64,000 nt of DNA from Petrosia ficiformis (taxonomy: Eukaryota > Porifera > Demospongiae > Haplosclerida > Petrosiidae), in NCBI GenBank assembly GCA_947044365.1, contig OX345636.1, positions 13,597,309 to 13,661,308 on the forward strand, read 5' to 3'. The stretch's first letter is position 1, and the number at the start of each line of letters is the position of its first letter. Shown here piece by piece: positions 13,607-51,664 of the stretch. The notes beneath the pieces were generated by a model. That model was given only the letters and a program-made list of their open reading frames with translations. It ran no database searches and had not been told where the DNA came from. A program made the position numbers and the translations under genes.

Positions 13607-14756
13607 ATGGAATATAAAGTGAGTTTTTTTACTAAAACATGTATAATTATGTAAATAAATACTCATTTAAATGACTATAATTAAATGACTATATGCTAAT
13701 AAGTACAGTATATGTCAATAAAGTCACCATACAGTACAGTAATTACTCAGTAGTTTCATTTCGACACTACAGTAGTTCAACAGTAGTTTTGACAGTAATT
13801 GGTGTACTTGTCAATTCAACACCACAGTAGTGAGACAGTATTTACTGTACTATAATACTGACAGTAGAACTAAGGTACTGTATGGTGACATTTTTTGACA
13901 TACTGTTGATTTTGCTTTGTCATATTGTTCTTGAACAAACTAAAGGGCATATATACAGCTTTATAACAATTGAGCTTTTAAACAAAATACTGCAGAAAAG
14001 GTATGTATTGTTTAGGACTCAAGGTGATTTGATTTAGTCAAAACTTCTTTAAATATGCATGAACAACTAAGTATTCAATATAATTATTGTTGGTGGGTGT
14101 GGTAGTGTGTGCATGTGTGTATATGTGTATATGTATGTGTGTGCTTATACACATGGGTGTATGTGTAGGAATTAGTGCTGCCACGATATATCGATATATC
14201 GACATATCACGATATAATTAAAGCCATGATACGATATGATATAACATTTTTTTATATCGATATGGTATACGCATGCACAGTTGAAAAAAAAATGGCGTCA
14301 TGTTTGAACTACTTAAAATCATTTTCTTGCATGCACCTGGAAAGAAGGTATCTACTGTATGTTGATTTTCTGCAAGCTTAAAGGTGTCTGCAGGTCTCTA
14401 AAACAGTAACAATCTTAATTCTGGAACATGGAAAGCAAAAGAGCCTTTGACTTCCTGAAAAGTGGGCGTCGCCCACAAGCAAGATGACGACTGATGTAGG
14501 AATCTAGCCTTAAAAATTATAAGATTTTCTTACTTTATTTTAGTTTATAGTTGTATCTAATTAAGTTTAAAAGGTACAGCAAGTTTTAAGAGCAGAGGAC
14601 AAAAAATAACATAACTGTAACCTTTGGTCAAAACATTTAATTATTATTAATATAAATGAATAATTAATTAAATTATATCGTGATATGTGATACATCGCGA
14701 TATAAACAGTCACGACATACGATAAAAAATTTTCTATATCATGGCAGCACTAGTAG

Positions 14757-14795
<39 letters not shown>

Positions 14796-15154
14796 CATAT
14801 ATATATACATGTATATATATACATATATACATATATATATATACATATATATATATACATATATACATATATATATATACATAATATATATATATATAGC
14901 ATGCTACCATGGCAACCGTTTGATGTGGTTAGGTCTTATATTTTTGTATATAGACCTGTGAATCTTTAATCTATCAGCATACAATATATTGTATATAGTA
15001 CACTTACAGTTCTTATATAAAACAATATAAAACCTTGGTTTAGTGTCCTCGGATGTGATATAGCCCTCGCAGGCTCAGGCTATATCACATCCTTGGACAC
15101 TAAACCTCGGGTCTATATTTTTGTATATAAGACCTGTAAGTGTACTATATATAT

Positions 15155-15205
<51 letters not shown>

Positions 15206-18200
15206 CACATGTATATATGTACATGTATGATAATAATTATTTGTTTTGTGTGTGCATCCATGTACATGTATGTGTGCAGGTATAAATGATGTGTGTGTAC
15301 ATGTATGTTAGGTGTTTGTGATTATGTGTGAGTATATGTTGATTTGTACACGTATGTTTGGGTAGTGAGTACATTAGTACTTATGTGTGTATAATAATAC
15401 GTATACAAATATACATGTACATGTACGTGTAAACACACACAAGGGTCAAAGGCAGGAGGTTTGAAAAACCCTACAGAGAGGAATAGGTACAAAATATACC
15501 AACCACATTTTTGCACTTATACAAACAATGTACATGCACATGCACATAGTTTTGTTAGCCTACAAGCCTGGAATGGATTTCTATGCCTCTTATAAACCAG
15601 TTCACATCAGAGGGTGATTATATTTCGTTTGAAATTACAGAACTACATGTAGTTAGCTGAACTCACAGGAAATTTCTACTTCTAGTTGACCAAAAATTAT
15701 TACATGTATCCATTTCAATTCTTTTTTTCCTGTGTCTGAAATTCAATTTACCTTGTTTTGCCTTCACATACACATGTACAATTGTATATGTGCATACAAT
15801 ATGCAGTGTTCTGCCACACTGGTCAGCACTGGTCAGGAATAACCACCCCTCACATGAACTAACTACCTCTCACATGAACTAACTACCTCTCAGATATTAC
15901 ATACACTGTACCAGACAAACAGCAATGTAGAATTCAACCAACATTCCAAATATCCTGGGCAGAACACTAAATTTGATATTTTATTTACACAGTGAAGTTA
16001 TTTTTCATACATTAATATAATGTAATATACATGATAAATCTCTCTCCACTATCTACATGTAGCAAAATGAAAACAAGCCACCAATACAAGAACAGAATCC
16101 TAATGGTAAGATTACATGTGTAAGTTAATTAATAAACACTCTCCTTTGAATGATTAAGGTGGTGCGTAAGCAACCATGTGTAATTTTCATAAAAAATTAA
16201 TACTTAACACTTAATACTCTGGAAGTTCAAAGTTATTGTTTGATATGGTTTCGTGTACAAATTGGACATATACATATACATGTACATGTACATGTAGGTT
16301 GGTTTAAATAATCAAATATGCCTTTTTCACAAGTATAATTATTGAAATTTTTTAATTAAGGGTATTTAGAGGAGATGATCATAACTGAAATTACGCTTTC
16401 CTATTGTAATCTCATATTAGAAGGTTAAGCTAAAGTCTGTTCACATTCACAATGACCTCAAAATTAGGATGCGATGACTTTATATGTAAACAATTTATAC
16501 AATGTAGTTTTACTGTAACTTAATCATGACGAACAAGAAGGATCAGTGTTTTTGATAAGCTCATATGGCGCACCATTGGCCCAAAGAGCTTCTTATTTGC
16601 CACAGTACAGTTCTCTTTTCAACTGTTGGGCAATACTTCAAGAATCCTCGTTGTATGATGGAGTCTTGGCACATACATGTACATAAGAAGATGGTGCTGT
16701 GAACAAAGAAAAGTACTACTACCTGATGTCTACCTGATACTCACAAGCTCAACATACAACCAAGTGTGTGTGACCAAGACTAATACATGTGACCTCTATG
16801 ACATCATGCATGTCTTGCACACTCCATGGAGTGTAGTGTAGTGTAGTGTAGTGTAAATAGTAGAATCAAAATAAAATCAATCCACGAATTATTAATATAC
16901 ATGTACATGTACATGTAGTTAACAAGCAAAAAGTATTCAAAGATGCAGCCCCAATCTATTTGACGATTGTTTTGAACTAAAAATTAAGGAGAGAGTGAGG
17001 ATGTATAGGTCCTTCATAAAGATCAATCAAGACAAACTCAGAGACAGTGTTTTCCAAGGAACCTCTACTACCTTCAAGCCGAGAGAGGTGACAGTTATGG
17101 ATACCAGGGCGACAGAGCACATTATACCCCAATGGGCAACCAACCTACATTCCCTCAGGCATTTCGAGCTTTCAGAGGAAGAACAAGTGACTATGACAAT
17201 CCCCAGAAAGAGGTTCATCCATGTATGAATATGTTGTCACAAATATAAAAAAAGCATAACACCACAGGAAGAACAAATCACTTTGTTCACAATTAGGAAC
17301 TCCTAATACAGGACCTTTGAGTCCTTAAGTCTAATCAGGCAGTAGGGATAGAATTTTTCGTACAAATTGGATTTCATACAGAAATTTTCGTTAAGGAGAG
17401 GAAAGAATTGATCACGTGAAGCACATTGCTCCAGGAGTGGAGATATGCTACATGTACCTCAAAAAATGTTTATTTACAGTACATATCATATGCAACTTAA
17501 GAGACAGACACATGCCTGCACGTGAACGCATTTAGTACTGTGGCAAAATTGTAGGCATGTGTAATGATAATTATTATTTCTATATGTTTGTGTACATGCG
17601 TACACATTTATATAACATGTGCACGCTGTTTTATCTCCAGTCAAGAGCATTTGCCAAAAATAAGTACGTTTGCCAAAATACACACGTGTTCAACACAAGT
17701 GTGCTCTTAAGTTGTTGGTGAACTAAAGTTAAGGGAGGATACATGTATTCCCTCCCTGCTGTATGAAACCTGATAAATCCTACCACGGAAAACGACCCTT
17801 CCAGAAACAACTGTCTGTAAGGAATAGAGCCATTTTAGAACTCACAGAAAGAGAAACCCGGGGGGGGGCTTCTACTCCAACAAGTTCCTAGTCCCAAAAA
17901 GGACGGGAAAAATGAGAACAGTCATAAATCTATAAAACAATATCCTATTTCAAGATAGAGGGTATGCACATATTAAGAGTTCTTGTCCAGCCGAATGACT
18001 AGATGACAAAAATAGATTTAAAAGATGAATACTTTATAATTCCTATTGACGAGAACCATCAGACGTTCCTCAGATTTAGAGTAAGATTAGGCTAAGAGCA
18101 GAAGTGAGGAGTCTCAGCAAGGATGCTACATGTGTATCTTGCATAGGCAAAATGATCTCTTTGGCACACGCAATCTCTCCTGCTCTGCTCCTGAAATGTT

Positions 18201-20174
18201 TCTCCAAGTTCTTAGCAGATGAGTCGTATGTATGTCCTGCCATAACTGTCAGGCATTATACTGAAAGGACAGAGCCTCTCTGTAAGCTTTGACCAATATT
18301 TTCAGTGTATATAGCCCACTGCATTAAGACAGTTCTGGCAAAGGCAAGTATAGACACTTGCTACAAGAGATGCATCAGTATCCGCTGGTGCAAATTCAGC
18401 TACATGTACATTTTACCTACCAAAGAAATTTTGGAAGCAGCCAATTGGAGCACAGAGTCCGTGTTCCAAAACTCCCACTACAAACCAGAAAAGCTGTTAG
18501 CAACAGGATGTTCTCCATTGTTCGAATAGAGAAAAATATCGAAGTACGGTAAGATGTAGGATTTAGGGTCCCGAACCATAGGGTCTCTTGCCGTTAGAGG
18601 TTAAAATATGAACAACGTTTATTTCCCAGGACTGGCTGAATCATTTACAAAATGTAGGTTCATTTCCTGTAGTAATTAATGAAATTTGTATCGTAATTCA
18701 ATATTTCTCTCTATTTCAATAAAACACACCATTGAAAAGTGAGAATCACCTTCTGAAATATATACTTTCAGAATGGCAAAGGTCGCAGAGCTATTCGATA
18801 TTATATGAAGTCCACCTCAGCTCCCCCACATTGATATACATGAGAGAGTCATGTGTCGAAAAGGCCAGAGAGCTAACATGGCTGACGGATTATATAGCTA
18901 CTGTTGACTCCTCCCACTTTCTATTTATTCATGTGGCTAGGATAGCACAAATACTACAAACTAGCTCTAATTAGTAGGAAACTAGTCCATACACCCTTGT
19001 TATGTGAGACTGACCTTCTGAATATCATGCAGCTGCTTTGTTTGGTGATGTACAGTAGTCTGTTAATAGCAGAAGTTCTACCAAGGTTAGCAAACAGCAA
19101 CTGTGTCCAGGGTTTGCTCTAGCTAGGGTATAAAACTAGGCCTCTCATTAATATTCATGAGTAATCAAGTTTGTATTAATCGTAGTTTTCACTCTATTTT
19201 ATAGGTACCAACAGTACCGTACAACAACGACTATTACTAATTTATAACTTATTTAAAGACCTGCACACCTTTCAGTGATAAAATCAACAATTTTAGGTTA
19301 AGCACTCAACTTTAGGTGACCAGGGACACCTAAACACCCTCTAAAGCAAACACCGACTGTGTCATAAAAATGCATTGTGTTTCCAAAAATCCCTTTGTTT
19401 TTTTCTTAAGCCAGGTTCACAAAGCCTTGTGTCACGTCAATGCGTTGTATTGTAAACAAGATATGATCTGATTCTATCTTTGTGTCAGCTGTGTTGCATT
19501 TCATCAATCAGTTTTCAGAATTTTATCACAACACAACGAACGCATTGATAGGCTTTGCGTCATATTCTGAACCAGGCTTTAGTGACTTGCCTGAAAGTTG
19601 GCAGTACTTCACTTGGGGCTAGTTTTCTGAGAATGTTTGGTAACAAACAGACACACAAACAAACAAAGTACCATACCCTGTACCTATACGGTGAGGTTTA
19701 AAAATTCCAATATACATGAACTTGTATATGTACATGTATATGTATTACATAATACTTATTTTAAATCCCAGATCGAACAGTGCATAACAGTTTATGACAA
19801 CATACATGTATATCATGATTATTTAAATATCCCCGTAATACATTTTCCCACAAAAACATTCTCACAAATAAAGTATACTATAGTACATGTTGCTGAACTA
19901 GGGGGTGGGGGCTTTAAGCTGTTTAACTACATGTACAAATAATCTACATGTATTTCATTATGTACCTTCTTTCATTCCAGAGTATACATGTAGTAAGCAA
20001 AAGCTGGTTGTTCATCCTTCACATAATCAGTATCATGATCCTGCAAATCCTATTATTTTTGCATCCTCTACAACAAAAGTCCCAAAATGTGTATACTGGA
20101 TAGATACAGTTACTGTTAGCAGTCAACAAGGAGAGTCCCGCTTAGTCCATGGGATACTAAAAAGTGTGCAATAA
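13607..20174 (+). CDS. NQY-family gene A (three exons, ~82 residues)
   Basis: Exon 1 (13607-13618) encodes MEYK before GTGAG. Exon 2 (16063-16105) has a TACATGTAG acceptor, encodes [14 protein letters not shown], and ends at G|GTAAG in phase 1. Exon 3 (19981-20174) follows the conserved TTCATTCCAG acceptor in phase 1 and encodes [17 protein letters not shown], then [16 protein letters not shown], then [16 protein letters not shown]. All phases agree. The terminal exon aligns with those at 38238, 40828, 50689 and 51450. The protein has no signal peptide or hydrophobic helix and is small, basic and probably soluble. A hAT MITE (14173-14752), a DIRS relic and repeats occupy the introns. The family and function are unknown. 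Joining these exons into one transcript over 6.6 kb is inference. Confidence 0.45.
14173..14752. mobile_element. 580-bp hAT-type MITE, 8-bp target duplication GTAGGAAT
   Basis: The ends TAGTGCTGCCACGATATA and TATATCATGGCAGCACTA are inverted. GTAGGAAT flanks both sides (14165-14172 and 14753-14760). The size of the duplication and the TAG...CTA ends fit hAT. No transposase is encoded; the open frame at 14175-14381 starts inside the terminal repeat. Confidence 0.85.
14760..14898. repeat. (TA)n tract with TACATGTA interruptions
   Basis: About 140 bases of TA and TATATACA/TACATG alternation directly follow the MITE. The open frame over it is low-complexity. Confidence 0.9.
14991..15152. repeat. 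Nested palindrome (TCCTCGGATGTGATATAGCC core)
   Basis: The outer arms ATAGTACACTTACAG...AACAATATAAAACC pair with GGGTCTATATTTTT...CTGTAAGTGTACTAT. The inner arms TTTAGTGTCCTCGGATGTGA pair with TCACATCCTTGGACACTAAA. The loop is CCCTCGCAGGCTCAGG. A relative with different outer arms is at 53566-53700. A pure AT tract follows to 15201. Confidence 0.7.
15300..15530. repeat. Dispersed repeat R4
   Basis: The sequence from GTTAGGTGTTTGTG to ACCACATTTTTGCACTTATA is repeated at 63737-63999 with moderate divergence, including GAGTACATTAGTA and GGGTCAAAGGCAGG words. Minus-strand open frames here are not conserved. Confidence 0.6.
16429..16640 (+). pseudogene. Composite relic: R2 fragment plus decayed hydrophobic exon
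   Basis: 16429-16500 matches the R2 intron repeat. 16541-16630 matches the transporter-like exon at 11111 and still reads [19 protein letters not shown] before drifting. It shows that the two pieces travelled together at least once. A short AGTGT repeat lies at 16832-16853. Confidence 0.5.
16995..17228 (+). CDS. 77-codon open frame, unrecognised, near DIRS relic
   Basis: The frame begins [20 protein letters not shown] and ends RKRFIHV. Composition is normal for protein (mixed, basic, few repeats), unlike most AT-driven frames nearby. It lies 560 bases upstream of the reverse-transcriptase relic in the same direction, so it may be a remnant of the same element. It has no domain I recognise and no conserved second copy in the window. 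Confidence 0.25.
   Translation: MRMYRSFIKINQDKLRDSVFQGTSTTFKPREVTVMDTRATEHIIPQWATNLHSLRHFELSEEEQVTMTIPRKRFIHV
17795..18530 (+). pseudogene. DIRS-like retrotransposon relic (RT and tyrosine recombinase)
   Basis: In shifted frames the sequence reads [11 protein letters not shown], then MRTVINL, then [20 protein letters not shown] and TFLRF, the fingers and palm start of a reverse transcriptase. Further on comes a segment ending [16 protein letters not shown]. It then reads [16 protein letters not shown] and [20 protein letters not shown], which matches the C-terminal end of DIRS/Ngaro tyrosine recombinases (AADWSSESVFxRFYxRP). The pol-to-recombinase order fits the DIRS order. Several frameshifts, a G run at 17860 and large internal loss make it dead. 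The 3' tail GCTGTTAGCAACAGGATGTT recurs at 55709. Confidence 0.75.
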
Positions 20175-20388
20175 TATAATTAATATAATTATACACATAC
20201 TTGTCAGGATTACATACAGGGGTTTGTTAGGGTCAATCATGCAAACCACACTGCATGTTGGGTGTGGGAGGGATCTGAAGTATGTTATCCTAAGAAATCT
20301 TTAAGTTCAGGCTCTCTGAGGTTGCTTCTGGGCCCCACGAAGGCTTGTAGTTGAGATGTTGTTGCATGTTGAAGTAAATCTAGGAGTG

Positions 20389-20426
20389 GATCCAGTGCTA
20401 GATGGAAATCCATCTAGCACTGGATC
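20389..20426. repeat. Perfect 38-bp hairpin
   Basis: GATCCAGTGCTAGATGGA is followed by AA and its exact complement. Nothing else is seen in 20175-20920. Confidence 0.85.
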
Positions 20427-20924
20427 TCTTAATATACTTCTATCTAGTACCTTTAACAAAATTATTATAAATATAAACTGCTCAAAAAATAATTACAGTA
20501 TATGTACAATGGTTATGTGAATGCATGCAAGTCATCAATATAATCACTTTCCATTATCTTGCTGTTCAGTCAATAAATGGTGTGGGTGTGTCAACAACAC
20601 TGACCATTAAGTTTAGGTCAAAAATCATGATCATAATAACAATAAAATGAATAATAATGATTATAGGAATTTAAATAATTATGTGTCTGTGGTCACAGGG
20701 TTTGGAAATGAATGAATGCATTCATAGTGTAGAATCGTCATTGCATTCCTAAATATTGACATAAAATGATACCAAATATTATATAATATATCTATAATTA
20801 TATTATAATTATTCTATATAATTATAACAATGTGTTTGTCTTTTAATTTATCCTCCAGTCCTTTGTCCATCTATTGTTTAAGCACTATAAAGCAACTTTT
20901 TATGTGGAGCAAAACAGTTTTTGC

Positions 20925-21310
20925 CTTGGTTCACGTGTGTGAAATAGGTGGAGCTAGAAAATGATTGTCATGGCAGAAGCTTAGAGCCAGTGCTCAATGT
21001 TGTAGCAACCACTACCTCAATTGTACTTCTTTTCAAGCAGTGCATTGACAGCGATAGCTTCGAACAAGATGAGTTGTGTTACCATATTTGTTTGCTACCA
21101 GAAATCTCATGAAAGTTATAAAAAAATGTAGACTGAAATGTTTTAGAAAAGGACTATTATTATAATTTGAAGTTCCAATGTACATAACATGTAGTATTGA
21201 TGGAAATTTGAGTGTATAAAAAAAAGGCAAATTGGAGTATATAAAAAAAGGCAAACAGACAATAAACATAATTATATTACATGTAAATTCCATAGTAATT
21301 AGGTACAACC
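20925..21310. repeat. Dispersed repeat R1, copy a
   Basis: R1 runs from GTCATGGCAGAAGCTTAGAG through ATGTTGTAGCAACCACTACC to AAACAGACAATA. Other copies lie at 37470-37840 in the same direction and at 26980-27245, 35760-36040 and 39880-40290 in the opposite direction. At 40290-40218 it could start a frame MAESLEPARCCSSHSFNF, but that frame is broken here, so coding is unsupported. Confidence 0.6.
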
Positions 21311-21943
21311 TTTTTAGTTAGGGTAGTGAAAATACCTTGACTTACTGTGGAATCATACACACATACCTTTACATGTACACAATATTTGGCTTGGGATCAA
21401 ATACATCAGTATCTTTAAGCATTAGATTATAATAAACATCACCTGTTAACACTATTTGAATTTTAAAATCTAACTAGATAAAGAAGTATTTTAAAAGTAT
21501 TTAAATACTTTTCAAAGTATTTGTATTTATATACATTTGTACATGTGAAGTATTTGTATTTGTAATTGATATATATGTATTTGCATTTGTATTTAAATAC
21601 ACATGTACTATTTAATGTATTTGTTCCCAAGCCTGCATCATATATACTTAAAGAAATCCCTCTCCTGAATTAAGCACCTGCCTTGTATAGACCGTAATAA
21701 ACACCTGACCATAATTTTTATTATAGCTTAATTAGCTTAGCCATTCATAGAAGTAACATAGTATGTAGTTAGATATAAGGCTGATAATCATGTATGGAAA
21801 GTTTCAAACAGTCCCAAAGTAGTTTTAAGAGAACAAATGCCTACCTCCAATAAATCCCTATGCCTATTGAGACTCTTGCTGAAATTTGAATTGTTAAAAT
21901 CCCATATTGGTAGATAACAATAGTGTACCTTCTTTTATTCCAG

Positions 21944-22080
21944 GATGTCATCACTGTGATCAATGTGTTATCAGTTCCAACAACAGAATCATACAGTACA
22001 TATTGGACACTGTTAATAGTTGCACGAGAAGATGAGACTCTTGCTCAGTCATAAAAGACAGCATCTTACAGAATACAGAA
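21944..22080 (+). pseudogene. Decayed NQY-family terminal exon (relic 2)
   Basis: The acceptor GTACCTTCTTTTATTCCAG is intact. The following 137 bases match relic 1 at 114 but have lost the segment for the VPNC part, keep TYWT, and contain stops. With the exon at 22395 it forms a duplicate of the 1-890 block. Confidence 0.5.
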
Positions 22081-22394
22081 TAAGATTAATATTAAACTAA
22101 GTTACAGCAATTATAATATACTTAGTCTAAATGTAGTACTTTTTTGTAACCCACATAACACACATGTACATGTACATATATTGTATGTATGTTGAAATAT
22201 CCATTATTGTGTAATAACACAAAACACTTGTTATTCATAACATGATACAATTGCTAACATAGTGTTCCCATAGTGCTTCGGTTGACTAAGTGTATTCATG
22301 CTGAAGGATTTGTTTTTCACTAGTTACAACAAATTTATTTCAAATGTTTTGTTTGAAAGAAAAAAAATTACCAGATGTTTCAATTACTTTACAG

Positions 22395-22449
22395 CAATCT
22401 TTATCAGGTGGTATTGTTCTGAGTAGTGAAAAACAAATCCTTCCGCATG
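22395..22449 (+). CDS. Internal exon, phase 0 to 1 (copy of 735-789)
   Basis: It encodes QSLSGGIVLSSEKQILPH plus one base between TTACTTTACAG and GTAAAAC. The frame is open and the junctions are identical to the first copy. No downstream terminal exon of matching phase is found before 38238, so the gene may be broken or may be missing its last exon. Confidence 0.4.
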
Positions 22450-23152
22450 GTAAAACTATTACAATTCTAACAAACTAACATCAGGGATACACACAGTGAA
22501 TTGGAAACCTAAACAAGATAAATTCATGAATTGAATCTCACATCTAATGATTGTAAAGATGCATTTAGAGATCAGATGAACTCTAGGCAAATACTATTCG
22601 TTACTGTCGTATAACTGAGCAATTACATGTACATACCAGCTATATATTTTGATGACTATTAAAGTTACATGTAGCTCTGTTGTATTTTAATTGTTGTTAT
22701 TATCATTATTATGCCATGCATTGCACAAAAAGAATTACTATAATTATATATGAGATTTTAAGGCTGCACTACTTCCGTGTATAATGGAATTGTTAAAATA
22801 ACAGATGTACATGTATCACTGCAAAAATTAAAAGAATCAATTTATTGGCTAGTACAGTTGCATGTACAGTAGCTCAATGTACATGTAGTTTGTAATACAG
22901 GTTGTGGCAGCTACTCGCATGATGTTACTATGACATTATGCACAAAGTATAAAAATGTACACTAGAATAACTTAAATTATGTGTTTACAGATTTCAACCC
23001 TATTGTTGGCCAGAAATGCCAGATATAATTACGAGGTTGTTGGTATGAAATACGAATAGGCAGCTCCCTAAAATTATGCTGCTTCAACTAGAAATTATTG
23101 GTTATAATAATTAGTACAAAGTAACTAAAGTAGTTATGGCCTTAGCATATGT

Positions 23153-23305
23153 GTATCCATAATAATCTGAACAACCAACTAATTTTTAAGTCCCTGCAAC
23201 TGTACTAACTACTAACCAGTACAAATATTATTTTAACAATTTTGTTTTTGAGTGATATTGGTTAGTACAGTTGCAAGGATTTAAGAATTAGTTGGTTGTT
23301 CAGGA
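23153..23305. mobile_element. Foldback element, ~150 bp
   Basis: AACAACCAACTAATTTTTAA and CCTGCAACTGTACTAAC are mirrored by GTTAGTACAGTTGCAAGG and GAATTAGTTGGTTGTTC. Related GTTAGTACAGTTGCAAGG ends occur at 22850, 49031 and 59907. Confidence 0.55.
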
Positions 23306-23495
23306 TACATACATCTAACACCATAGTTACTTGGGTCTAATTATATTAAAATACATAAGAGATATTTGTACCAATTATATAATCAATGAACATTCTTAAA
23401 TGCAATATCTCATATTAGATGCAGATTTGGATTTAATTAAAATATTCATTTTCCTTCTTTGTACCAGTGGATTATTATATCCCCATAATATGATA

Positions 23496-23932: not shown

Positions 23933-24173
23933 ATATGATACTACATGTACATGTATGGTGCTACACTTTAATAAGGTGATAATCAACTGTACTTCTAAGT
24001 ACTTTGTACTGTAATCATAGTGAAGTGTGTGTTCCCTTTATACTTGTATTTGATAGCACAGTACTAAGGTATAATACTGTGTAGTACATTTGAAGTACAG
24101 TGTACTTCACACAAAGTAGTCAATGGAAGTACAGTGATAGTATGTAAACTTAATAGTGTCAGGTACTGTATAT

Positions 24174-24547: not shown

Positions 24548-24779
24548 CTGTATATATATTTATATATCTAGAATTATTATATATATATAACTATATATAT
24601 ATATATAACCAATAAATTAACAATTTTATTTTTGCAGTGAATATACAGTGTACCAATTTGGTTATCATACACAAAAAAAAACTTAATCATAAAGTTTGGC
24701 TAATGATAACTATTTATAACATAATTATAGGTTATTATCTTCTATACTGTATATATATTATAGTAGTCTAGTTCTGTAA

Positions 24780-26113: not shown

Positions 26114-26245
26114 AAGAAATTCATTACTATAATGATTATCACAACTATAAGCACCTGACTTCATTAAGTTTACATACTTTAATGGGGGCTACACTTTAGT
26201 AAGGTGACAGTCAATTTTACTTTTAAGTATTACTATAATTTATAC

Positions 26246-34242: not shown

Positions 34243-34803
34243 CAAATCAGAAACAATTCACCATTCAACAAACCAAATCCTGGTGCATATGGTAAGATTT
34301 TACTACAAACCTTCCACAAATCAAGGAGATGTAGGGATGACCAATGTATTAAAAGGGTATAGGGATTTTGCATCTGAGTAACTATTGTCTCTTGTTTTTT
34401 AACTTTACATACATATCAGGGCATTGGAATTAAAGACAAGATGTGGAATGATTCAATTCAGATTCAAATTACAAATGCTTCACTTCAATTCCAGTAAATT
34501 AATTCCAATTCCATTCTAATTACAGCAGGTAGTGTTATGAATTCCACACCATTTCAATGAAGTTTAGTCCAAACAGAATTCATTATCCAAGGACCATGTT
34601 AAGTAATTATCACATACAATACATGTATATTACTTTTCAAAAATGGAATTGCTCTGGAATTGTACCATTCCTGCCAAACCTTCAATTCAATTCTTGTTCA
34701 TTTGATAGCGCAAGTTGCCAATTCATAATTCCACCCCAATTCATGCTAAAAGTGGAAAATTCCAGAATCATCAAAATTTTCAATACCAATGCCCTGATGT
34801 ATG

Positions 34804-37800: not shown

Positions 37801-38464
37801 ACTACAGTAATCATCCGCCAAGGGTTAATGACAATATAACTACATTGGTGCATAATGTAACAAGATTATTTAATTATGTAATGACAATTTTCAATAAACT
37901 AAAGTCTGTTCACATTTACAATGTCCTCAAAATTATGATGTGATGACTTTATATGTAATATGTAATGTCATAAGGTTAATACCTATGCTGTAACTCAATA
38001 ATGAATTTATCAATTGAAATCTGACACAAAAAATACAGGAAAGATATGTGAAAATGGTGAAGGTAAAAAGATTGTTGGTCCTTCAAAACTAAAGTTATGA
38101 ACATTTGCCTGAGGCTAAGGTGAACGTGAATGACCTTAGTACTTATTACAATATTATGAACTCACCATTGACATACATTGGCTGTTTAGCTACATGTATT
38201 ATCGAATTAATAACCATGTACCTTTTTTTTAATCCAGACAGAAATGGTGCACAGTGTCTGGTGTTTCTTCCTCCTTCAGTTAATCAGTATTGTGGCAGTG
38301 AGGATGCTATCATTGTTTCATCTGCTTCAGCAATACAAGTGCCAAACTGTACATACTGGACACATCCACTTACTAGTAGTAAGAAAAAAGGGGAATCTCA
38401 TTGGGTGACTAGAAAAAGTATGCAACAATATTTAAAGACAATATTAGACATAATTAAATATTAA
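34243..38464 (+). CDS. NQY-family gene B (exon 2 and terminal exon)
   Basis: Exon 2 (34243-34291) follows TAGTATCTATAG, encodes QIRNNSPFNKPNPGAY and ends G|GTAAG in phase 1, like exon 2 of gene A. The terminal exon (38238-38464) follows TTTTTAATCCAG in phase 1 and encodes RNGAQCLVFLPPSVNQYCG, then DAIIVSSASAIQVPNCTYW, THPLT, and KGESHWVTRKS, ending DIIKY. The joined codon is GAC. About 91 residues are visible; the first exon is not certain. The R2 repeat lies at 37893-38137, 100 bases before the last exon. A 142-bp part of the last exon is almost identical to 40842-40983. Function unknown; the cysteines and NCT sequon are not enough to infer secretion. Confidence 0.5.
34806..34855. repeat. 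(TA)n microsatellite
   Basis: About 25 uninterrupted TA units. The open frame that crosses it is an artefact. Confidence 0.95.
34890..35162 (-). repeat. Inverted copy of the promoter/first-exon module
   Basis: On the minus strand it matches the start of both segmental copies: CGAAAGACAAAACC, the GAAG|GTAAGCATT donor, and the CTGCCATC/CCGTC and ACCACAGGGTGCTA words at 2058-2230 and 7760-7900. The palindrome at 35050-35162 is the same as that at 1955-2067. No gene body follows, so the module is itself a dispersed repeat. Confidence 0.6.
35190..35560. repeat. Dispersed repeat M4, copy
   Basis: GGGGCTCAATCAATTAATGG, GTGTTCAAGCTCTACAGACC and AAAGCAATCATAGGGAT are shared with the insertion at 55101-55638. 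GTTCAAGCTC resembles a pol III B box, so a SINE origin is possible. Confidence 0.5.
35760..36040 (-). repeat. Dispersed repeat R1, copy d
   Basis: Matches the 39880-40290 copy in the same orientation through AAACACATTGAAACAC and CAAGGCTATCAC, more diverged. Confidence 0.45.
36045..36420. repeat. Dispersed repeat M4, copy
   Basis: It starts TTTATGGCCCATAGGGCCAT and ends AAAGCAGTCATAGGGATACT, forming the inverted termini seen at 55101-55638. Between 36420 and 37470 I see no supported feature. Confidence 0.55.
37470..37840 (+). repeat. Dispersed repeat R1, copy b
   Basis: GTCATGGCAGAAAGCTCAC, GATGTTGTAGCAGTTACTAC and GAAACAGACAAACAGACAAT align with copy a. The 71- and 65-codon frames here lie within the repeat and are not conserved in other copies. 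Confidence 0.55.
37893..38137. repeat. Intron-resident repeat R2 upstream of an NQY exon
   Basis: GTCTGTTCACATTTACAATG to GTGAACGTGAATGACC aligns with 4488-4795 and 10318-10622 with small deletions. In all three cases it sits shortly before a terminal exon. Confidence 0.6.
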
Positions 38465-40827: not shown

Positions 40828-41030
40828 AATATTTTCGGGGAGGTGCACAGTGTCTAGTGTTTCTTCCTCCTTCAGTTAATCAGTATTGTGGCAGTGAGGA
40901 TGCTATCATTGTTTCATCTGCTTCAGCAATACAAGTGCCAAACTGTACATACTGGACACATCCACTTACTAGTAGCAAGAAAACAGTAGAATCTCGTTTG
41001 GTTATATATAATATAAATAACTACAATTAA
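40828..41030 (+). CDS. NQY-family terminal exon, near-identical core to 38238
   Basis: The acceptor is GTACCTTCTTTTATTCCAG and the phase is 1. It encodes YFRGGAQCLVFLPPSVNQYC, then SASAIQVPNCTYWTHPLTS, and ends SRLVIYNINNYN. Bases 40842-40983 match 38246-38387 at all but two positions, both silent, while the first 14 bases, the end, and both introns differ. No phase-0-to-1 exon is found between 38465 and here, so this may be an alternative last exon of gene B or a copied exon without its own gene. Confidence 0.5.
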
Positions 41031-42258: not shown

Positions 42259-42282
42259 GTTAACGTAACATATAACCACAGA

Positions 42283-42415
42283 GTCTAGGCACCGCCGAGC
42301 TATAGGCCCCGCGCGCCCCTTTAACTGTGGCCGACGACCGTCACGACCCCAGTCTTGATCGAGGCAGCCGCTGCCTATAGAGTGAGAGCGCAGTTGTCGT
42401 CAGCTAAGCTTATTT
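42283..42415 (+). promoter_or_regulatory. GC-rich, CpG-rich island before an open exon
   Basis: This segment has many CpG dinucleotides (CCGCGCGCCCC, CCGACGACCGTCACGACC) in otherwise AT-rich DNA. It lies immediately upstream of the ATG at 42447, so it could be a promoter; an inserted repeat is the alternative. Confidence 0.3.
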
Positions 42416-42446
42416 AGTACAAGATTCAATATGCTACAAACTAACC

Positions 42447-42590
42447 ATGCTAAAAAGAGGAGCTTTACACTTTACAGATCAAAAGCTTACTCAAGGTGTT
42501 GAAGTTATGTTTCCAACGAAATGGTTAGCTCCTGGAAACATTGTAAAAGAATTAGAAATGTTCAATATCCAACAAAAGGTATATAAATGA
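42447..42590 (+). CDS. Short exon/ORF MLKRGALHFTDQKL, unrecognised
   Basis: ATG at 42447 opens 44 codons with protein-like composition, including LTQGVEVMFPTKWLAPGNIV and KELEMFNIQQK, up to a possible AAG|GTATAT donor at 42578. Read through, it stops at 42590 (47 residues). There is no second copy in the window to test conservation. It is not recognised. 42591-43585 holds no supported feature. Confidence 0.35.
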   Translation: MLKRGALHFTDQKLTQGVEVMFPTKWLAPGNIVKELEMFNIQQKVYK

Positions 42591-43585
42591 ACAACTAAAT
42601 GATGTAGTGAAGAATCATGGAACCAGAGATAATAAATATATTATCTCTGATGGAACTAACAGGAGGGAGAATGGTAATTATGTATTAGAATTTGAAGTGT
42701 GCATGTGTGTAATGTAATGTGTAATCAGAAACATAGAATTTGTTAATGGTCATTCACTTATCGAGGTGTTTAGAAATTAATTGCGATTTGGAATATAGAA
42801 ATTTTCATTTCGAAATGGATGTCTACCTTCGGCTTCCATAGTCTGCCATGATTGGTAGATCTTCACTGTAAGATTCAATATGTTCTCTGCCTTCAACATA
42901 AATTATGTAGTCACAGTTATTTCATATTCATTACTTCATATTTTCATATTACAGTACAAATTATAGAATGGTTTTGCCAAGTGAAAGAGGATTAACTTAC
43001 TGATGTGACTCAAATCAATCTTCATGTTTCATAGTATATATGTTTGATAAATTCCATGTATATCTTTTTCGCAAATGTTTTAATTTGTTGTCTGTTATTT
43101 GATATTGTAAGTACAAAGTCATGGAATTTGTCAATAAATAACTTTGTTCTCCATAATATTGGACAATATGTGAACATAATTTTCAAAAAGCTACACTTTC
43201 ATGGAATAATGTTTAGCTTACATTTAATCACTCATTGTTCTGCCATTTTGTACAGAAAGTCAATGAAATTTGATATGTAGCTAAGAAGCAATAGCTGGAT
43301 ACCAAATTTAATTGACTTCCTGCATAAACTAGTGTTTGGTCAAAACATTTAGTGGGAATGTGTCCCTTTTCGAAATTAGGTCACATACATGTATCTTGTG
43401 ATTGAGTGTCTGTTTCAACACCAGTGTTTATATGTAGTCTTGTCCCCAGCTAGGTCCACCATGTCCTGCAGGGAAAAGACAATGTACAGTTGCTTAAATC
43501 TTTGGTCCAAGTGTCAAACGTTCTCTCCACTCAAAAACGTACGGCAATAATGAAAAATAATGATTGAACATTGCATGTGTGACAT

Positions 43586-43664
43586 TAGTCTCACATAGCC
43601 ACCCCAGGCCTCTCGAATCCCTGGCCCTGGTTCATAAAGGGGAGGGGCTGGCTACGCCAGACTA
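43586..43664. mobile_element. 79-bp Mutator-type mini-element
   Basis: The ends TAGTCTCACATAGCCACCCC and GGGGCTGGCTACGCCAGACTA match the arms at 27246. The flanks GTGTGACAT and TTGTGACAC agree at seven of nine positions. Confidence 0.55.
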
Positions 43665-44398
43665 TTGTGACACCTGAGGACAACGAATATAAAGCAACAT
43701 TTCCCGACCGCGGCCGTCTTTCACCTGAAGGGGCATGATGGTCTGGCGACGAGACTAGTTATTGTGTGTGTATAATCATATGCAGGACTTCATTTTTGGT
43801 GGGATTATTGAGGGACGGGTGTGGGAGTTGTGGGTTATTCCCCCACCCCCATACAAAAAGTGTTAAATGTAACATTGCTTCAGGTTGCTTCTGCGGCCTG
43901 TACGTAGCTGCTGATATTTTTTTTTTAAAAACATTTCAGAGGTATGTAAATATATTCACCACATTCTAAAACCACAATGATTTAGCAGCTACATTATATA
44001 GTATTAAACTTTGGAAAATTTCCCAGGTCCCTCCTCTGTATGAAACCCTGCAGCTGATATGCACACAAGGCCATGTGTTTCATGAATCATTCAATTATGC
44101 CAACATGATTTTCAAATCAGAAATAATGATACACTAAGTGTATCATAATTTCACACAGACTAAATTATCTATCACTTTGATATTGTTATTGATCATTTAA
44201 ATATTTTTATAGAAACACTTTAAATTTTAAGAACAACTTAGACGATGAAACTTCTTTTAAAAGAATATTCCATGAATTTTATAAATTCAACTGTTTTTGT
44301 TTTGCTGAATTAACTTTATATTCAAGTATTAATTATTTTGTGTTATAATGTGCATGTTTGTTTGTTGCTTGAATATCTCTTCTTTTAGCAAGTATTAT

Positions 44399-44490
44399 GA
44401 AAGATTCTGCAGTTACAACATTTACAATACTTCATAGCACAATGAAGAAGTGCAATAAAAAAAGACAATGTAGCTGTGTCTATAGTGTAA
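44399..44490 (+). pseudogene. DNVAVSIV-type terminal exon, frameshifted
   Basis: After TTCTTTTAG the frame reads SIMKDSAVTTFTILHSTMKK, but one extra A in the run at 44457-44463 shifts it off the KKDNVAVSIV ending kept by copy B. It is also 21 bases (seven codons) shorter than copy B. The long frame to 44615 comes from that shift. Confidence 0.55.
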
Positions 44491-44812
44491 AAGAAATTCA
44501 TTATAATGATTATCATAATTATGCTAATAAAACAATAAAAACATTTTTTAATAATAAGGATAGGATTTCAAAGCCTAAAATGTATGCAAACAAGATCAGG
44601 ATGGTACTAACTTGAAAGCTGTTAGCAACTGGTTCATTGAGAGTTCATTTCCTGTAGTAATTAATGATATTCATTTAAATATTTACCGTAATTCAATATA
44701 CCAGTAATTATCACTCTATTATAATGAATAACATCTAGTCACTAACGACTAGTCTAGGTAAATATAAGACCCAAATTAAACAACCACTGTATATATATAT
44801 ATACAGTGAAAC

Positions 44813-45413
44813 CACCGTTAGCAGACACCTCCCAATAGCCGACACCTCTCTAAGACGGACACTTTCTTGCAGTCCCAAACACACTTCCATAGACGCCTAT
44901 AGATTGGAACCCTCTGAAATACGGACACCTCACTATTCCATATACCGGACACATATCACACCCCCATTGATATTATAACATACGAAAACCACTCTATATT
45001 GCGGACAGTATAATTAATTTTTTCAAAATTATTATCAATAATATTTATAATATTTATATTATTATTAATTACACTATCTTCACTGTATCCAATCTTGAAG
45101 TCTAACAATCAGTGCTTTTAGTCTATCGACATAAACTTTTGGAACATTTCGGAAACACAGATAATATAAATACTGCTCTGCAGAAGAGTTTGCCACAGGC
45201 AACGATAATGTACCTGTAGCTATGTCAAGACTTTGCTGATGATAACTAGGAAAGTGAATTTATGTCACAGTTTGATAACAATCAAGAAGAAGATATAACA
45301 CTAAAACTAATGTTTTTGACAATATAGGTAAAGATAATAATAAACCTCTGAAATGAGGACACCTCTATAATAAGAACACTTTGAGCTGGTCCCAATGGTG
45401 TTCAATTTTGCTA
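44813..45413. mobile_element. CAGTGAAACC MITE, right end deleted
   Basis: The left end CAGTGAAACCACCGTTAGCA and the inner ACGGACACC words match the complete element at 56013-56635. The right end is lost in a deletion joining GGTGT to TCAATTTTGC. Confidence 0.65.
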
Positions 45414-45729
45414 AGGATTTTAAAATATAATAATTAAAACACTTGTAATTATATATTTACCAAAATGGCTTGGGACATTTGAACATGATCCTAGTGGCCC
45501 TAAGACAATATGCACCTGCTCTGACACACAGTTCATTCCTGTAGTGACAAAATGAATATAGAAATGATCATAATTATAATTCCAATTATATAATTATATC
45601 AGATGTAATTGTTAAAGAATTCTTTTGAGCGCATTATGGGGAAATTACAAAACAAGCATACAGCAAAGTGCATTCTTGTATGCTTGTCAACACCGCACAT
45701 TGAGTGCATTACAAAAAAAATTAGCGTAC

Positions 45730-45801
45730 ATGAGGTGTGGTCGAGAAGCATACAACATAAAGAAATGAGCATGGTATGTTTGATGATACCACACCTCTCA
45801 T
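45730..45801. mobile_element. Small ATGAGGTGTGGT inverted-repeat element
   Basis: ATGAGGTGTGGT and ACCACACCTCTCAT bracket 45 bases. The same arms make the tight hairpin at 31093-31136. The duplicate is at about 57131-57202. The open frame around it (45609-45803) is broken in the duplicate. Confidence 0.5.
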
Positions 45802-45987
45802 GATATAATTCTATAGTGTATAGTAAGTGGTTTCATTAATACATTTATAGTGATGCATGGATGAGTCAGTCTTGATGGAGTGCTGTAAGAGCTTCTATGT
45901 TACAATAGGCATATGTCAGTGCTTTTGATACAACCACGCATCATACAATTGTAATACTTATAAAATCATTTGAGAATAGAGAGTTGT

Positions 45988-46029
45988 AATAACCAATGCA
46001 GTGGAAACACCACCACTGCATTGGTTATT
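45988..46029. repeat. Hairpin with shortened left arm
   Basis: AATAACCAATGCAGTGG faces CCACTGCATTGGTTATT. In copy B (57389-57438) the arms are complete and eight bases longer, so this copy lost GTGGTGTG. Confidence 0.75.
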
Positions 46030-47246
46030 TAGTAGAAATTGTAATTAGGAACGAGTGATAATAATAATATACTTACATGTTGCATCATAGGGATAATTAT
46101 CATGATTTTCGATATTATTATGATACTAGTGAAACATTGTCAATATACTACCTTTTGTCATATCAAGGATTTTCAAATCAACTTCCATACACACTAAGCT
46201 TGTGTAAGACCAAATTTCCAATTTTTACATTACTACAAGTATCTATATAAGTGATGATATATAATATTGCCCAGCTCTTGATTTTACAATACTTGACACA
46301 CTTGCAGGTCAATTAATTCCTGAAATTCCTGTATACCTGTCTATTGCGTTCATAAAGAAATAACAGGGTTAATTAATTCCTACAATTATTTTTAGCATAC
46401 TTTAATAATTATATACAATATGTACCACTCAAAATTAAATAAACATATTGTATTATATATAATTACTTGCTAGTTGGGGGTATGGTGAGTTTGAATATCA
46501 TCAATGGACTCCAAGGTCTGTTTTGTATTAGGAAAAACTTAGTCAAGCCTCATGTATGCATGTATACTGACAAGGAATATTATGATATTATACCAAAAGC
46601 ATATAATCTTGGGGGGGGGGGGGTGGTGTTAGCCTGGACATATGCTCAGGGAACATTCACATTAGAATTAATTGACCACACCCATATGAATAATTAATTA
46701 GATACAAAAATTTTGCCACACTCTTTGTGTGTCCCAATTCTGCCGAGGTAATATCTGGAGTCTAGTTATGCCACTGCACATTAAAGTGCCTCACCTACTA
46801 TAAATAAATACCATACATGTGGAGATATTGACAGTGTTTTTTATTTGCCAGTTTGGTAGTTTTGGGTTAATACTGTGACATTAAAATTCATCAATTAGTC
46901 CATGAATGTGCATGTGTATTCTAAACATTTTCCCTACTGAGAAATATAAAACAACAAGCTGATATCTTCCTTGGATGTGTTCAACAAAAAGTAGTGGTCT
47001 CCATTTCTCAGTTCTTACCTTCCGCTACTAAGTACTTCCAGTGATAAATGGAACAGCTTTCTATTGTTCAGAAGTTGTGCTCAGACACGCCCACATAATA
47101 AAATGTAAATTAATTGCTAATCGTAAAAATTTAATTCATCAATACTCTGTGTACACAAATTAATATTTACTACTATCAATATTTCCACATATACAATATT
47201 GCAGAAGGTGCTTTAAGTGCCTTCCACAATATCCAAAGAGTGTAGG

Positions 47247-47997
47247 CAGGAGCTTATGAGCGCCGTGAAGGAGCGTCAAACTGCAGTACCATCTGTTGTC
47301 GAGTCACACTTTCAGCAAAACTCCAAATATGGTCAAAAGGATGGATTTAAGATAAGTGTTCTGAAGTGGGTGGACAATTATTAGGATCCAGTCAAGAAAA
47401 AAATGTCAAACGAACTCGTGCAGAAGAACAGTCAAGCCACAGTCCTAAGCAGATTCGCTGTTTAGCAGAGATGAAATAGCGATCAAAAGAACCAATGCAC
47501 AGATTTCTGGATGGAATATTTCAAACTAACTGGAAGCCCGAAACGTAAGTTCTACAAGCCAAGAAGAAACTCAAGAAGAAAGCTTGAATACAAGGCGGTT
47601 TCAAATCATACTCTAGGTAACAAACTAATCATCATGTGCTTATTTCATTAGAGATATTGCTTTTGTTGTTGTCTATTAATAGTCCTTTTGTACACCCTGT
47701 AGAATCAACACACTGACAGCAGTTTGACACTTTTGTTACAGAGTTTGGTAGCACCTATCCTTTGCTGACTATACTAGTATCGTTTCGGTCTGGAAAGAAG
47801 TGGGGGATTATACAGACTCATCTTGTCAGACGCACACGATAGTCAATTTATAATTTTTTTTTTTTTAATAAACACTTATCACAGAGGTTTTCCATATAAG
47901 GCAGTTTGCAAAGGTGTGATTCGACAACAGATGGTTTGCAAAACATATTGGAGTTTGATGCTCCTTCGCGCCACTTTGCGGTGCTCATAAGCTCCTG
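47247..47997. mobile_element. 751-bp CAGGAGC transposon, 7-bp target duplication, empty site in copy B
   Basis: The arms CAGGAGCTTATGAGCGCCG and CGGTGCTCATAAGCTCCTG are inverted over about 110 bp. GTGTAGG lies at 47240-47246 and 47998-48004. Copy B has a single uninterrupted TTGTAGGTGTGATAG at about 58864. Inside, a plus-strand frame includes VKRTRAEEQSSHSPKQIRCL, resembling the MKRTR frame of the 587-bp element at 3241, then stops. The minus ORF 47879-48241 runs across the right arm and is not a gene. Confidence 0.85.
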
Positions 47998-48004
47998 GTG
48001 TAGG

Positions 48005-50000
48005 TGGGATAGAAATATGAATAAATATAATGTAGTGTGAGTAATTCTGCCTAATATAGTAATAACAATACAAGTAGCTGTTCAGTTCTAGTTGAAATAC
48101 TTTGCTAAAGGTATAGAAGAACCTCAAAATGGAAAAAAGAACGAACAAAATAGTAACTATATAGGGCAAGGCGCTTTCTGTAAAGAGAGCTTGTACACAA
48201 ACATCAAAATATACCATTAGTGGACATACATGTGGACACATATTCTATATACAAGTACATTATACATACTTCTTGTTGGACACATTCCAAGGAAGATATC
48301 ATATGGTTGTTCTATATTTCTAAATGTTAAGAATGCACATGCGCATTTGTGAACTAATTAGCGAATTTAAATGTGAACCCAAAACTGCCAAATCAAACAC
48401 AAGACACTGCCAATATTTCCACATATATGGTACGTCATTTATCTTACATTTATATAACATGATAAATATAGATGTAGTGCAATTCACTATAGAGCAATGA
48501 AAACACTTTGACAAACACAAGTCCTGACAACTAAACTGGCACAATTACATTAGTTAATTATAATTAATGATACCAAATTAAAAAAAAAAAATTGAATACT
48601 TATTTATAGTTACATGTAGATGTATATAATATGTGACTACTGGTTCTGATAAAATGAATTCAAATACAATTTTGAAATACAAGTGAAAATACATTAGGCA
48701 GTTATGGGTTAAATTTGTCAACATAAAAATGTTCATTAATATGGCTTTGTCTTTATCTCAATCGGGATGTATGATATATCATTCCAGAGCTAATTTAATG
48801 CTCTATTCAGGTAAAACAAAAAAAATTAATTTTGAATTATAATCCATAAACTTGGTTTTCTCAGAGCCAGTCATATATAGTTCTAACAGTTCAGATCAGT
48901 TACACTGTATGCATGGAGAAATTGAGTTATTTTAACAATTTTATTTTGCAGTGTATGTGCTATTTATGGCTTACATATCTATAATAATTATAATATATAC
49001 TCTGCAAAATAAAGTAACTAATTTATTGGTTAGTACAGTTGCAAGGAATAGTGGAGATTGTAATTTAATTGGTCATGTAGGTTTTATGGACTAATTTAAT
49101 AATTACTATTTCAATTATCCTTATATTGTTGATATGTACAAAGAAGCAGAATAATATTTTTTAATAAATCCTTAAAACCTTCTTTGTACATCTAATATGA
49201 GATATAAGACATGATAATTGATTATAGTATCGTCTGTCATGCAGTCATAGCAACAACCTATATGACCAATTATATTATAATTAGCATCTTTGCAACTCTA
49301 CAACTAATACATTTTTAATTTCAACAATTCTATTTTTACAGTATAATTCTAGCAGAAACTCATCACTTGCAAACGATATGAATGGACAGCAAATCTTTTC
49401 TTAGGGTAGGTGTATTCCATATTAAGGTTCAATGCCAGTGATCAATAAAGACAGGGGAAGACCATATATATAGATCTAAATTTTTGCAGGCTATAAATTT
49501 CGCATTTTTCGTAAAAACTGACTGGCCGCAAAAATAATGACCATGTCCACCACATACGCTCATTTTTGGTGAATGCATACATTTTATCACAAAATAGTTG
49601 AATATCGTCAAAAATTTAGGGCTTAACAGTATATAATTACATGCACAAACTTGAGATACTGGAGTATTATAATTATTAAATTTTGATGAAACTTTTAATA
49701 ATTAGTAATAACTACTCACATTAAAACTTGCATGTCAATAAAACAGTTTAGAAGACTGTGTACAAACATTGAATGTTTATTAACATAAATATTACAAGTT
49801 CTGATTTTAATTAATTTTACTGGAATTGTCAGATTTGTGGCATAATGAGTGTACCTTGAAATCATAATAGGTTGTTTTAAAAAGCATAACATAATAGGAA
49901 CACACCTAGCATGATCAACTATAGCTGTTGATATATTTTACTATTTTAATAACAATTTGGAAAAGCAACAGGCATTTTAATTACATGCTCTCACATAATT
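48005..50000. other. Duplicated non-coding stretch and spacer
   Basis: It holds foldback ends GCAAAATAAAGTAACTAATT (49004) and GTTAGTACAGTTGCAAGG (49031). The minus frames 48320-48544 and 49429-49611 have counterparts in copy B, but with many replacement changes, so I do not call them genes. Confidence 0.5.
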
Positions 50001-50002
50001 AT

Positions 50003-50024
50003 AGGTGTGGCTCCAAATAATTAA
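50003..50024 (+). promoter_or_regulatory. AGGTGTGGCTCnAAATAATTAA motif upstream of NQY gene C
   Basis: Nearly the same as the word at 13159-13180. Here it is 225 bases before the ATG of gene C. Confidence 0.3.
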
Positions 50025-50227
50025 ATGTATTATAAGTTGATGCACCACAGTGAAATTAATTCATCTAATGTGAACATACACATGTACAGAGAATGCAAAG
50101 TATTACTTCCTACACTAATATTTTGATAGAGTACAATATCATTGAGAAATATACATATGCGACGATCATCGACAAATTAATTAAACTATACCGGATATAT
50201 AAGGGACTATACTACTTACTTTTTAAA

Positions 50228-50970
50228 ATGGAGTCCTATTTAGCACAACAGTTAGACTTTGAAGTGAGTATAATTAAGATAATGTAAATGTATTTAATCA
50301 TGTATATGACTATATGTACATTGTAAATGAGTATTTGGCATATGATTATAATCTGTATTAAGAATAATAGTAAAAGTATGAAAGTACATGTACATGTACA
50401 TCTGTCTCACGCGTTCATGTGTATCCAAAACAATCTAGTTCTTTCTTTCAAGTGATGACTCATTGAGTTATCCTCATAGTTGCTTCCAACATTGTAGTGA
50501 ATGTTTTCTTTAAATGCAGTAAACAATCATTAGGTACAGACACAATCTCATAAATGAGTCATCATTCTTGAGCTTTTCAATGAATTACTACAAAAACAGC
50601 ATATGTCACTTGAGGACCTAAAGTATTTAGTTCAGGCATTCACATAATAAATATTTAACAATAAATTTTGTCTATTATCTATACATAGAAAAACAGTGGA
50701 CAATGGCTGGTGGTTTTACCCATACTACCTTCAGTCAATCAATATGATAAAGAAACAACTGATAAATCTATCATTGTTCATTCTTCATCAACAATTCATG
50801 TGCCGAATTGTGTGTATTGGAGAGATCCAATTACTGTTAGTAACAGAAGAGGAGAATCTCATTGGGCCATTAAAAAAAGTATATTTTACATGATACATGC
50901 ATTTAACATTTGTAGCTATACATGTATGATAGAAAGGAATTCCATCAGCAATACCAGAAAGACATTTTGA
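50228..50970 (+). CDS. NQY-family gene C (two exons, 105 residues, complete)
   Basis: Exon 1 (50228-50263) encodes MESYLAQQLDFE and ends at a GAA|GTGAGT donor in phase 0. Exon 2 (50689-50970) follows TCTATACATAG in phase 0 and encodes KNSGQWLVVLPILPSVNQYD, IIVHSSSTIHVPNCVYWRDP, and NRRGESHWAIKKS, then a tail with CSYTCMIERNS. This is the most compact and complete member: one 425-base intron and no intermediate exon. The tail after KKS is longer than in other members. There is no signal peptide; basic residues follow the core. The AGGTGTGGCTC motif lies upstream. It aligns with the other terminal exons over about 50 residues. Function unknown. Confidence 0.55.
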
Positions 50971-51449
50971 CGATGTCTAGTGTGTGAAGATATATGGAGA
51001 AAAGGTATGATTGCTTTGGCCTTTTTATTTGCCACAGGGTCATTGGTCAATTGATGGGTGTAGCACTAGATACAAAACAGTACCAATTTATTCTGTCTAC
51101 CACCAGGAAGAAATCAGCTTACGGAACTGTTTTTGATAGCTGAAATTGATTGCAAAATGTATACAAAATAACAGTAACTATCAGGGTTCTATCTATTGGG
51201 GGGAAAAAAGCTCAGTAAAAACATTATAGTACTACTCCCAAATAGTGTCTACGGTGGCTGTATAACCACAATAATGCACACACATTTTTGTAACATGCAT
51301 GTACACAATTTTTCAATAAAATTCTCTCCCAAATAAACTATTATATATTAAAATGTGAACTGGTATTCTTTTGATATATTAAATTGGCTGTTTAACTACT
51401 AATAACCTATAATACAATACATGTAATTGTGTACCTTCTTTTATTCCAG

Positions 51450-51664
51450 AATACATTAGGCAAGACAGAGCACAACGTCTAGTGATTTTACATCCTCCAC
51501 ATAATCAGTATTGTGGTATTGAGAATGCAATCATTGTGTCCTCTGCTATGCCAATAGAAGTGCCAAACTGTACATACTTGACACACCCAGTTACTAATAC
51601 CAAAAGAGGAGAATGTTTAAGTCGCTGGGTCCTAAAGGAGAGCATTATATATAATATGGGATAA
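51450..51664 (+). CDS. NQY-family terminal exon D
   Basis: The acceptor is GTACCTTCTTTTATTCCAG and the phase is 1. The exon encodes YIRQDRAQRLVILHPPHNQY, then NAIIVSSAMPIEVPNC, TYLTHPVTN, and KRGECLSRWVLKES, ending IIYNMG. It differs from the others by L for W after the CTY and by an inserted CL in GESHW. The nearest upstream first exon is that of gene C in phase 0, which would not join in frame, so a separate phase-0-to-1 exon is missing or this exon is an orphan. Confidence 0.5.

Follow-up and report, generated by a model that had tools for sequence, protein, structure and literature searches.

We analysed a 64,000-nucleotide stretch of chromosome 1 (C1) of the sponge Petrosia ficiformis (C1:13597309-13661308, hereafter the window), which carries members of a family of short exons sharing an NQY core. 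The reading that we favour, to which we give about an even chance, is that these exons belong to a lineage-restricted, quickly turning-over tandem-array family of modular genes with a two-module build, met with to date in this sponge alone. As judged from the pattern of change between copies, the family codes for protein or did so until recently: the residues change fast, but frame and length are preserved. The five NQY exons of the window would make up three genes (A, B and C), not five, and most module exons are probably not terminal exons, as had been thought, but symmetric exons that begin and end in phase 1 (1-1 exons).

A clustered exon family and its reading frame

The search space was the P. 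ficiformis genome of 191,215,263 bases in 29 contigs, with 63,279,122 bases in C1. Own-genome protein searches with four different members placed the NQY exon at 32 sites in three clusters: 17 at C1:13.55-13.80 Mb (the window's cluster), 13 at C15:3.03-3.18 Mb and 2 at C1:38.0 Mb, a count that leaves out a 29-residue fragment at C1:13731649. Three relic places with stops were found outside the clusters (C1:28.10, C2:14.30 and C2:14.61 Mb). E-values were as low as 5.6e-44, and one query alone gave 29 matches at E <= 1e-3. Such clustering of copies on few chromosomes is what characterises a taxon-restricted tandem gene family. The 28 open copies were divided into five groups, C15A (8 copies), C15B (5), C1E (6), C1K (4) and C1Q (5); the type-A group contains seven copies on C15 and one on C1 (L011). 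In copy names, the prefix W marks exons of the window and L marks other genomic loci. A hAT transposase C-terminal domain (E 4.2e-11) adjoins an E-type gene at L025:777-1535.

All five exons reported in the original prediction (19981, 38238, 40828, 50689 and 51450) are indeed open and share its core, and the relics at 114 and 21944 are present, with the same acceptor stretch and broken frames. Four of the five follow a phase-1 acceptor, and 50689 follows a phase-0 acceptor, as claimed. The observation was thereby confirmed and its interpretation partly supported: the sequences are consistent with one coding family with a short exon 1, an exon 2 running from phase 0 to phase 1 and a conserved exon 3, and no family searched matches it.

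The 28 copies were aligned pairwise together with 400 bases of flank at either end; only open copies were compared, and the pairs share history and are not independent. Exon identity in the five groups was 0.911, 0.905, 0.860, 0.874 and 0.767, as against 0.535-0.682 upstream and 0.522-0.863 downstream, where 0.863 belongs to C15B and the other groups lie at 0.52-0.72. Of the 94 pairwise gaps within exons, 85 had a length divisible by three, as against 270 of the 994 in the flanks, showing that the reading frame is kept between open copies. Together with the E-values, these gaps indicate that the likeness among NQY exons is more than chance. Codon tests, which omitted L014, L026, L030 and the K copy of L023, gave pooled within-group ratios of nonsynonymous to synonymous differences (pN/pS) of 0.83 and 0.80 in the C15 groups, 0.98 in the E type, and 0.70 and 0.61 in the other two groups. 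It is from the identities, the gaps and the codon measures that the keeping of frame and length and the quick change of residues follow.

The end of the module exon and the predicted genes

Right behind the last conserved residues, 23 of the 28 copies have a GT at a homologous phase-1 place, after a lysine codon in most groups; by sequence, the module exon would be phase 1 in and phase 1 out in these 23 copies. With a slash for the predicted exon end, the place reads G/GTGTGTG in C15A (8/8), T/GTAAGT in C15B (5/5), A/GTATAT in C1K (4/4), and A/GTGTG or A/GTGAGT in C1E (5/6), where L023b has G/GTGAGT two codons further on instead. W38238 carries A/GTATGC at the homologous donor place, and L014, outside the 28-copy count, also has T/GTAAGT. 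The GT is missing from all four exons in the second position of a pair (0/4: W40828, W51450, L031b and L024b). The codon holding the GT reads G, C or S, whereas the GT itself is invariant, suggesting that constraint acts on the GT and not on the residue. Past the GT, K copies no longer share a reading frame (L024a versus W50689, and also the database protein P0022). Since the GT is shared and the frame is lost behind it, the description of 38238, 50689 and probably 19981 as terminal exons is doubtful. W51450 has a phase-1 acceptor, and its homologue stays open in three paralogues; without the K donor nothing in its own gene could join it in phase 1, which favours the K donor. The 'VCVCVC' tails of C15A copies are a GT repeat that lengthens the apparent reading frame. 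In each of the eight type-A copies (L009, L010, L011, L015, L016, L017, L021 and L022), this repeat starts precisely at the presumed donor. An exon that reads into a stop just behind a hidden donor can pass for a terminal exon, and caution is needed with such calls.

The features of the window are listed in Table 1. Module exons stand in predicted tandem pairs at 38238+40828, 50689+51450, L031a+b and L024a+b. Gene B is predicted to encode 143 residues excluding exon 1, in two modules that are near copies of each other; no exon 1 of this gene was found using a relaxed motif. Gene C, joined from 50228-50263, 50689-50878 and 51450-51664, is predicted to encode 146 residues, also in two modules. 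Gene A, if unspliced beyond its 19981 exon, would read 82 residues to the stop at 20174; alternatively, a splice at 20163 may lead on to the decayed 21944 exon. R-type exons could be aligned from five places, and the relics at 114 and 21944 look like decayed second-module exons.

The exon at 50689 had been set apart as an exception. Its phase-0 acceptor is real, but it is no mere exception: the exon has the acceptor and the first two codons of exon 2, joined to exon 3, and in L024 the two are separate (2103-2145; from 2329). The aligned copies indicate that 50689 is a fusion of exon 2 and exon 3, which explains the odd acceptor. As to the second exons that had been proposed, scanning the window and 25 loci by motif for such exons running from phase 0 to phase 1 gave six, namely 16063 and 34243 together with exons in L024, L025, L028 and L029. 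Among the proposed first exons, 50228 was borne out, while 13607 and 62373 are weak, matching only themselves (13607 also matches local tandem repeats). Exon 1 of gene C and the stretch upstream of it occur at five places genome-wide, all within the window's cluster, and so few places suggest that they are not a dispersed repeat. By eye, no signal peptide was seen in the first exons of the C1 cluster, so the predicted two-module proteins are probably inside the cell. Small soluble proteins, as had been proposed, may be encoded, but beyond these C1 first exons there is little to judge this by: no first exons were found upstream of the C15 genes, and two structure models were poor (mean predicted local distance difference test scores of 36.6 and 53.1).

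Table 1. Predicted features of the NQY family in the window (positions numbered from the first base of the window)
Feature	Position	Strand	Basis or remark
Apparent decayed second-module exon (R type) of a gene upstream of the window	114..230 (end approximate)	+	Family acceptor stretch, broken frame; one of 5 aligned R copies
Gene A, candidate exon 1 (MEYK), weak	13607..13618	+	ATG and phase-0 donor GTGAGT; paralogue search negative
Gene A, exon 2, 14 residues, phase 0 to 1	16063..16105	+	Homologous exons in L024, L025, L028, L029
Gene A, module exon (E type)	19981..20163	+	Possible phase-1 donor GTGTGC at 20164, else stop ending 20174
Gene A, apparent decayed second-module exon (R type)	21944..22060 (end approximate)	+	R copies also lie behind the E exons of L025 and L027
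Gene B, exon 2 (QIRNNSPFNKPNPGAY), phase 0 to 1	34243..34291	+	Motif scan
Gene B, first module exon, 180 nucleotides, symmetric 1-1	38238..38417	+	Donor GTATGC
Gene B, second module exon	40828..41030	+	Phase-1 acceptor, ends at stop; homologous place without donor
Gene C, promoter-like element CTATACCGGATATATAAGG	50186..50204	+	Kept in paralogues
Gene C, exon 1 (MESYLAQQLDFE)	50228..50263	+	Phase-0 donor GTGAGT; same exon in L031/L007, variant in L005, L023, L024
Gene C, fused exon 2/exon 3 (K type)	50689..50878	+	Enters in phase 0 through the exon 2 acceptor, leaves in phase 1 at GTATAT
Gene C, second module exon (Q type)	51450..51664	+	Phase-1 acceptor, ends at stop TAA
Next gene, candidate exon 1 (MDEFIT), weak	62373..62390	+	Exon 2 of that gene just past the window, in L028 (2204-2246)

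Elsewhere in the window, tandem repeats at 3828-4062 and 9608-9948 have a nearly identical unit of 84-93 bases, and those at 45334-45379 and 56546-56591 have an identical 17-base unit, suggesting a duplicated stretch. An Rfam transfer RNA (tRNA) match of 33.2 bits lies at 12581-12636; ARAGORN calls no tRNA there, and it is perhaps a tRNA-derived repeat. A scan for other known domains, covering 76 of the 231 listed open frames, yielded only three weak matches (E 0.0028-0.0098).

Relatives and the genes on C15

Searches for named relatives were negative. With 20 members as queries, no Pfam family was found at E below 0.1 (best 0.12), and joined B2 (described below) and module exons gave nothing in Pfam up to E 10; the best E-value against the PDB was only 0.35. 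Among 5.8 billion public proteins there were 24 distinct matches, none named. Of the first 21, seven are identical to copies found here and the rest are mostly 75-99% identical; P0019, at 61% in the protein comparison, resembles L030, which was absent from that comparison. We infer that the 24 proteins come from the same or a very near species. A tblastn search against plasmids gave nothing, as expected, and a literature search, whose reach largely excludes subscription journals, turned up no paper on the NQY family.

For the module, a beta-strand-rich pattern was predicted with low confidence. Modules on 1-1 exons are typical of fibronectin type III (FN3) repeats, and such repeats are abundant in this genome, which makes the predicted strands and the 1-1 exons points of likeness. 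The NQY module differs in having no Pfam match, and when its profile was compared by hhalign with that of 20 FN3 exons from this genome the probability was 0.2%, on which the FN3 half-domain suggested by the strand pattern was rejected. Dense FN3 domain arrays lie at about 0.17-2.4 Mb of C12 (G000:C12), and the majority of the 150 FN3 matches scored genome-wide fall in this region.

The genes on C15 have further exons. A phase-1 exon that ends in a stop (the T exon) lies downstream of the module exon in seven of the eight type-A copies, namely all seven on C15 and not L011 on C1, and this also speaks against exon 3 being terminal in general. Identity in the T exon was 0.947, as against 0.770 and 0.861 in its flanks, and gaps numbered 0, as against 126 and 141. 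Divergent T exons are found in L020 (type B) and L030. The T exon of L030 (4733-5233) is swollen by a frame-preserving repeat, roughly 11 residues long (IPVEETGNDNE-like) and present in many copies; a Tox-PL-2 match on this frame (E 5.3e-4, under the curated cut-off) falls inside the repeat-bearing exon and was taken as chance. A cysteine-bearing 1-1 exon, B2, stands upstream of the module exon in 4/6 C15B copies. Homology of B2 or the T exon to the module was given no support by profile comparison, though both profiles were very shallow. Conserved blocks upstream of the C15B genes (L012:2760-3260) are open on the minus strand by eye and are perhaps another gene.

The favoured reading, its alternatives and a possible role

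In the reading that we favour, the unit would be an exon of about 180-230 nucleotides encoding a module of about 60-75 residues, starting and ending in phase 1. A gene of the window's cluster would comprise a conserved promoter-like stretch, a short acidic exon 1, an exon 2 of 14-16 codons, a 1-1 module exon and a second module exon in which the protein terminates, and one lineage would have fused exon 2 to the module exon. Because of the phase symmetry, module exons could be duplicated or lost without a frame break, which fits the copies seen. We think it likely that the predicted junctions are used in transcripts, and we are a little more confident that the genes make protein.

Several points weigh against this reading. 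All junctions were predicted from sequence alone. E-type donors are poor (GTGTG) in 4/6 copies, C15A donors run into the GT repeat, and searches behind L028 and behind the E copy of L023 turned up no second exon. Damage affects at least three copies: L014, L026 and, in L023, the K copy. Within groups, pN/pS approaches 1 in the E type and is 0.80-0.83 on C15; synonymous exceed nonsynonymous differences in nine of ten between-group comparisons and equal them in the remaining one, and codon position 3 is the most variable in only 7/10 between-group and 3/5 within-group comparisons. The T exon has a pN/pS of 0.94 in its reading frame versus 0.41 in another frame, and the reading frame of B2 is not favoured over other frames.

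Some of these points would be expected if the genes encoded single-module small proteins of 80-105 residues, with exon 3 terminal and the downstream exons being other genes or alternative ends. Stops lie close behind the GT in many copies, E-type donors are weak, and gene A, if spliced no further, gives a protein of 82 residues. But the GT is fixed while its residue varies, the frame is lost just behind it, the C15B donors are full-consensus and 51450 would be left without a phase-1 partner, and we consider single-module proteins unlikely. A largely decaying array, that is, a formerly working family whose copies are now mostly unexpressed and drift under little constraint, would account for the pN/pS of 0.8-1 in the E and C15 groups as well as for the broken copies, relics and weak donors; it is at odds with the frame-keeping gaps, with exon conservation above that of the flanks and with the recent K-type pairs, whose rate ratio of nonsynonymous to synonymous change (dN/dS) is 0.16-0.41 in 3/3 pairs without L024a, and appears distinctly unlikely.

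1-1 exons are typical of extracellular receptor and adhesion proteins. A longer family of this kind, with signal-peptide and other exons missed, would suit the 1-1 phase of the module exons and the cysteine-bearing B2 exon upstream in 4/6 C15B copies, but we regard it as quite improbable given that by eye no signal peptide is seen in the first exons on C1, the lack of a relation to FN3 or a Pfam match, and the type-A copies, which share no upstream exon within about 3 kb except one 16-residue candidate. Transposon pieces (reverse transcriptase and hAT) abound in the clusters, as they might if the family were derived from a transposon. The original prediction had named a match of the core to a known transposon protein as grounds for rejection; Pfam gave no transposon family for the module, and the copies lie in three clusters with 3 relics and are not scattered, so that such an origin is highly improbable.

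With the two-module tandem-array reading, each module would be a small, mostly beta binding unit, and two in tandem would bind a partner. Turnover of the arrays and weak constraint would diversify the binding surface, as in recognition or host-defence families. The most plausible role is that the modules bind something itself variable, in recognition or defence; this is a tentative guess, to which we give clearly less than an even chance, and it weighs among the points against our account. Sponge SRCR genes (PMC10855680) are an example of the expanded tandem-array recognition families of invertebrates; like them, the NQY family has many clustered, fast-changing copies in a sponge, but it lacks an SRCR or other Pfam domain and a cysteine-rich pattern, and its role is putative. 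It resembles taxon-restricted ('orphan') tandem families in its clustered copies and in having no relative beyond near species in the databases searched, and differs from them in its regular two-module, phase-symmetric build, its exon fusion and its conserved promoter-like stretch.

Orphan families whose clustered copies change fast often form the front line where an animal meets its microbes, and PMC12648040 describes P. ficiformis as harbouring many symbionts. The family offers exact, testable junctions, and one exon fusion and several exon losses have been caught in close copies. Though we hold it to be rather unlikely in full, the family may represent a new small beta-rich module confined to the lineage of this sponge, whose phase-symmetric exons would build one- and two-module proteins and whose arrays would turn over fast by duplication, fusion and loss, a home-made diversifying recognition system.

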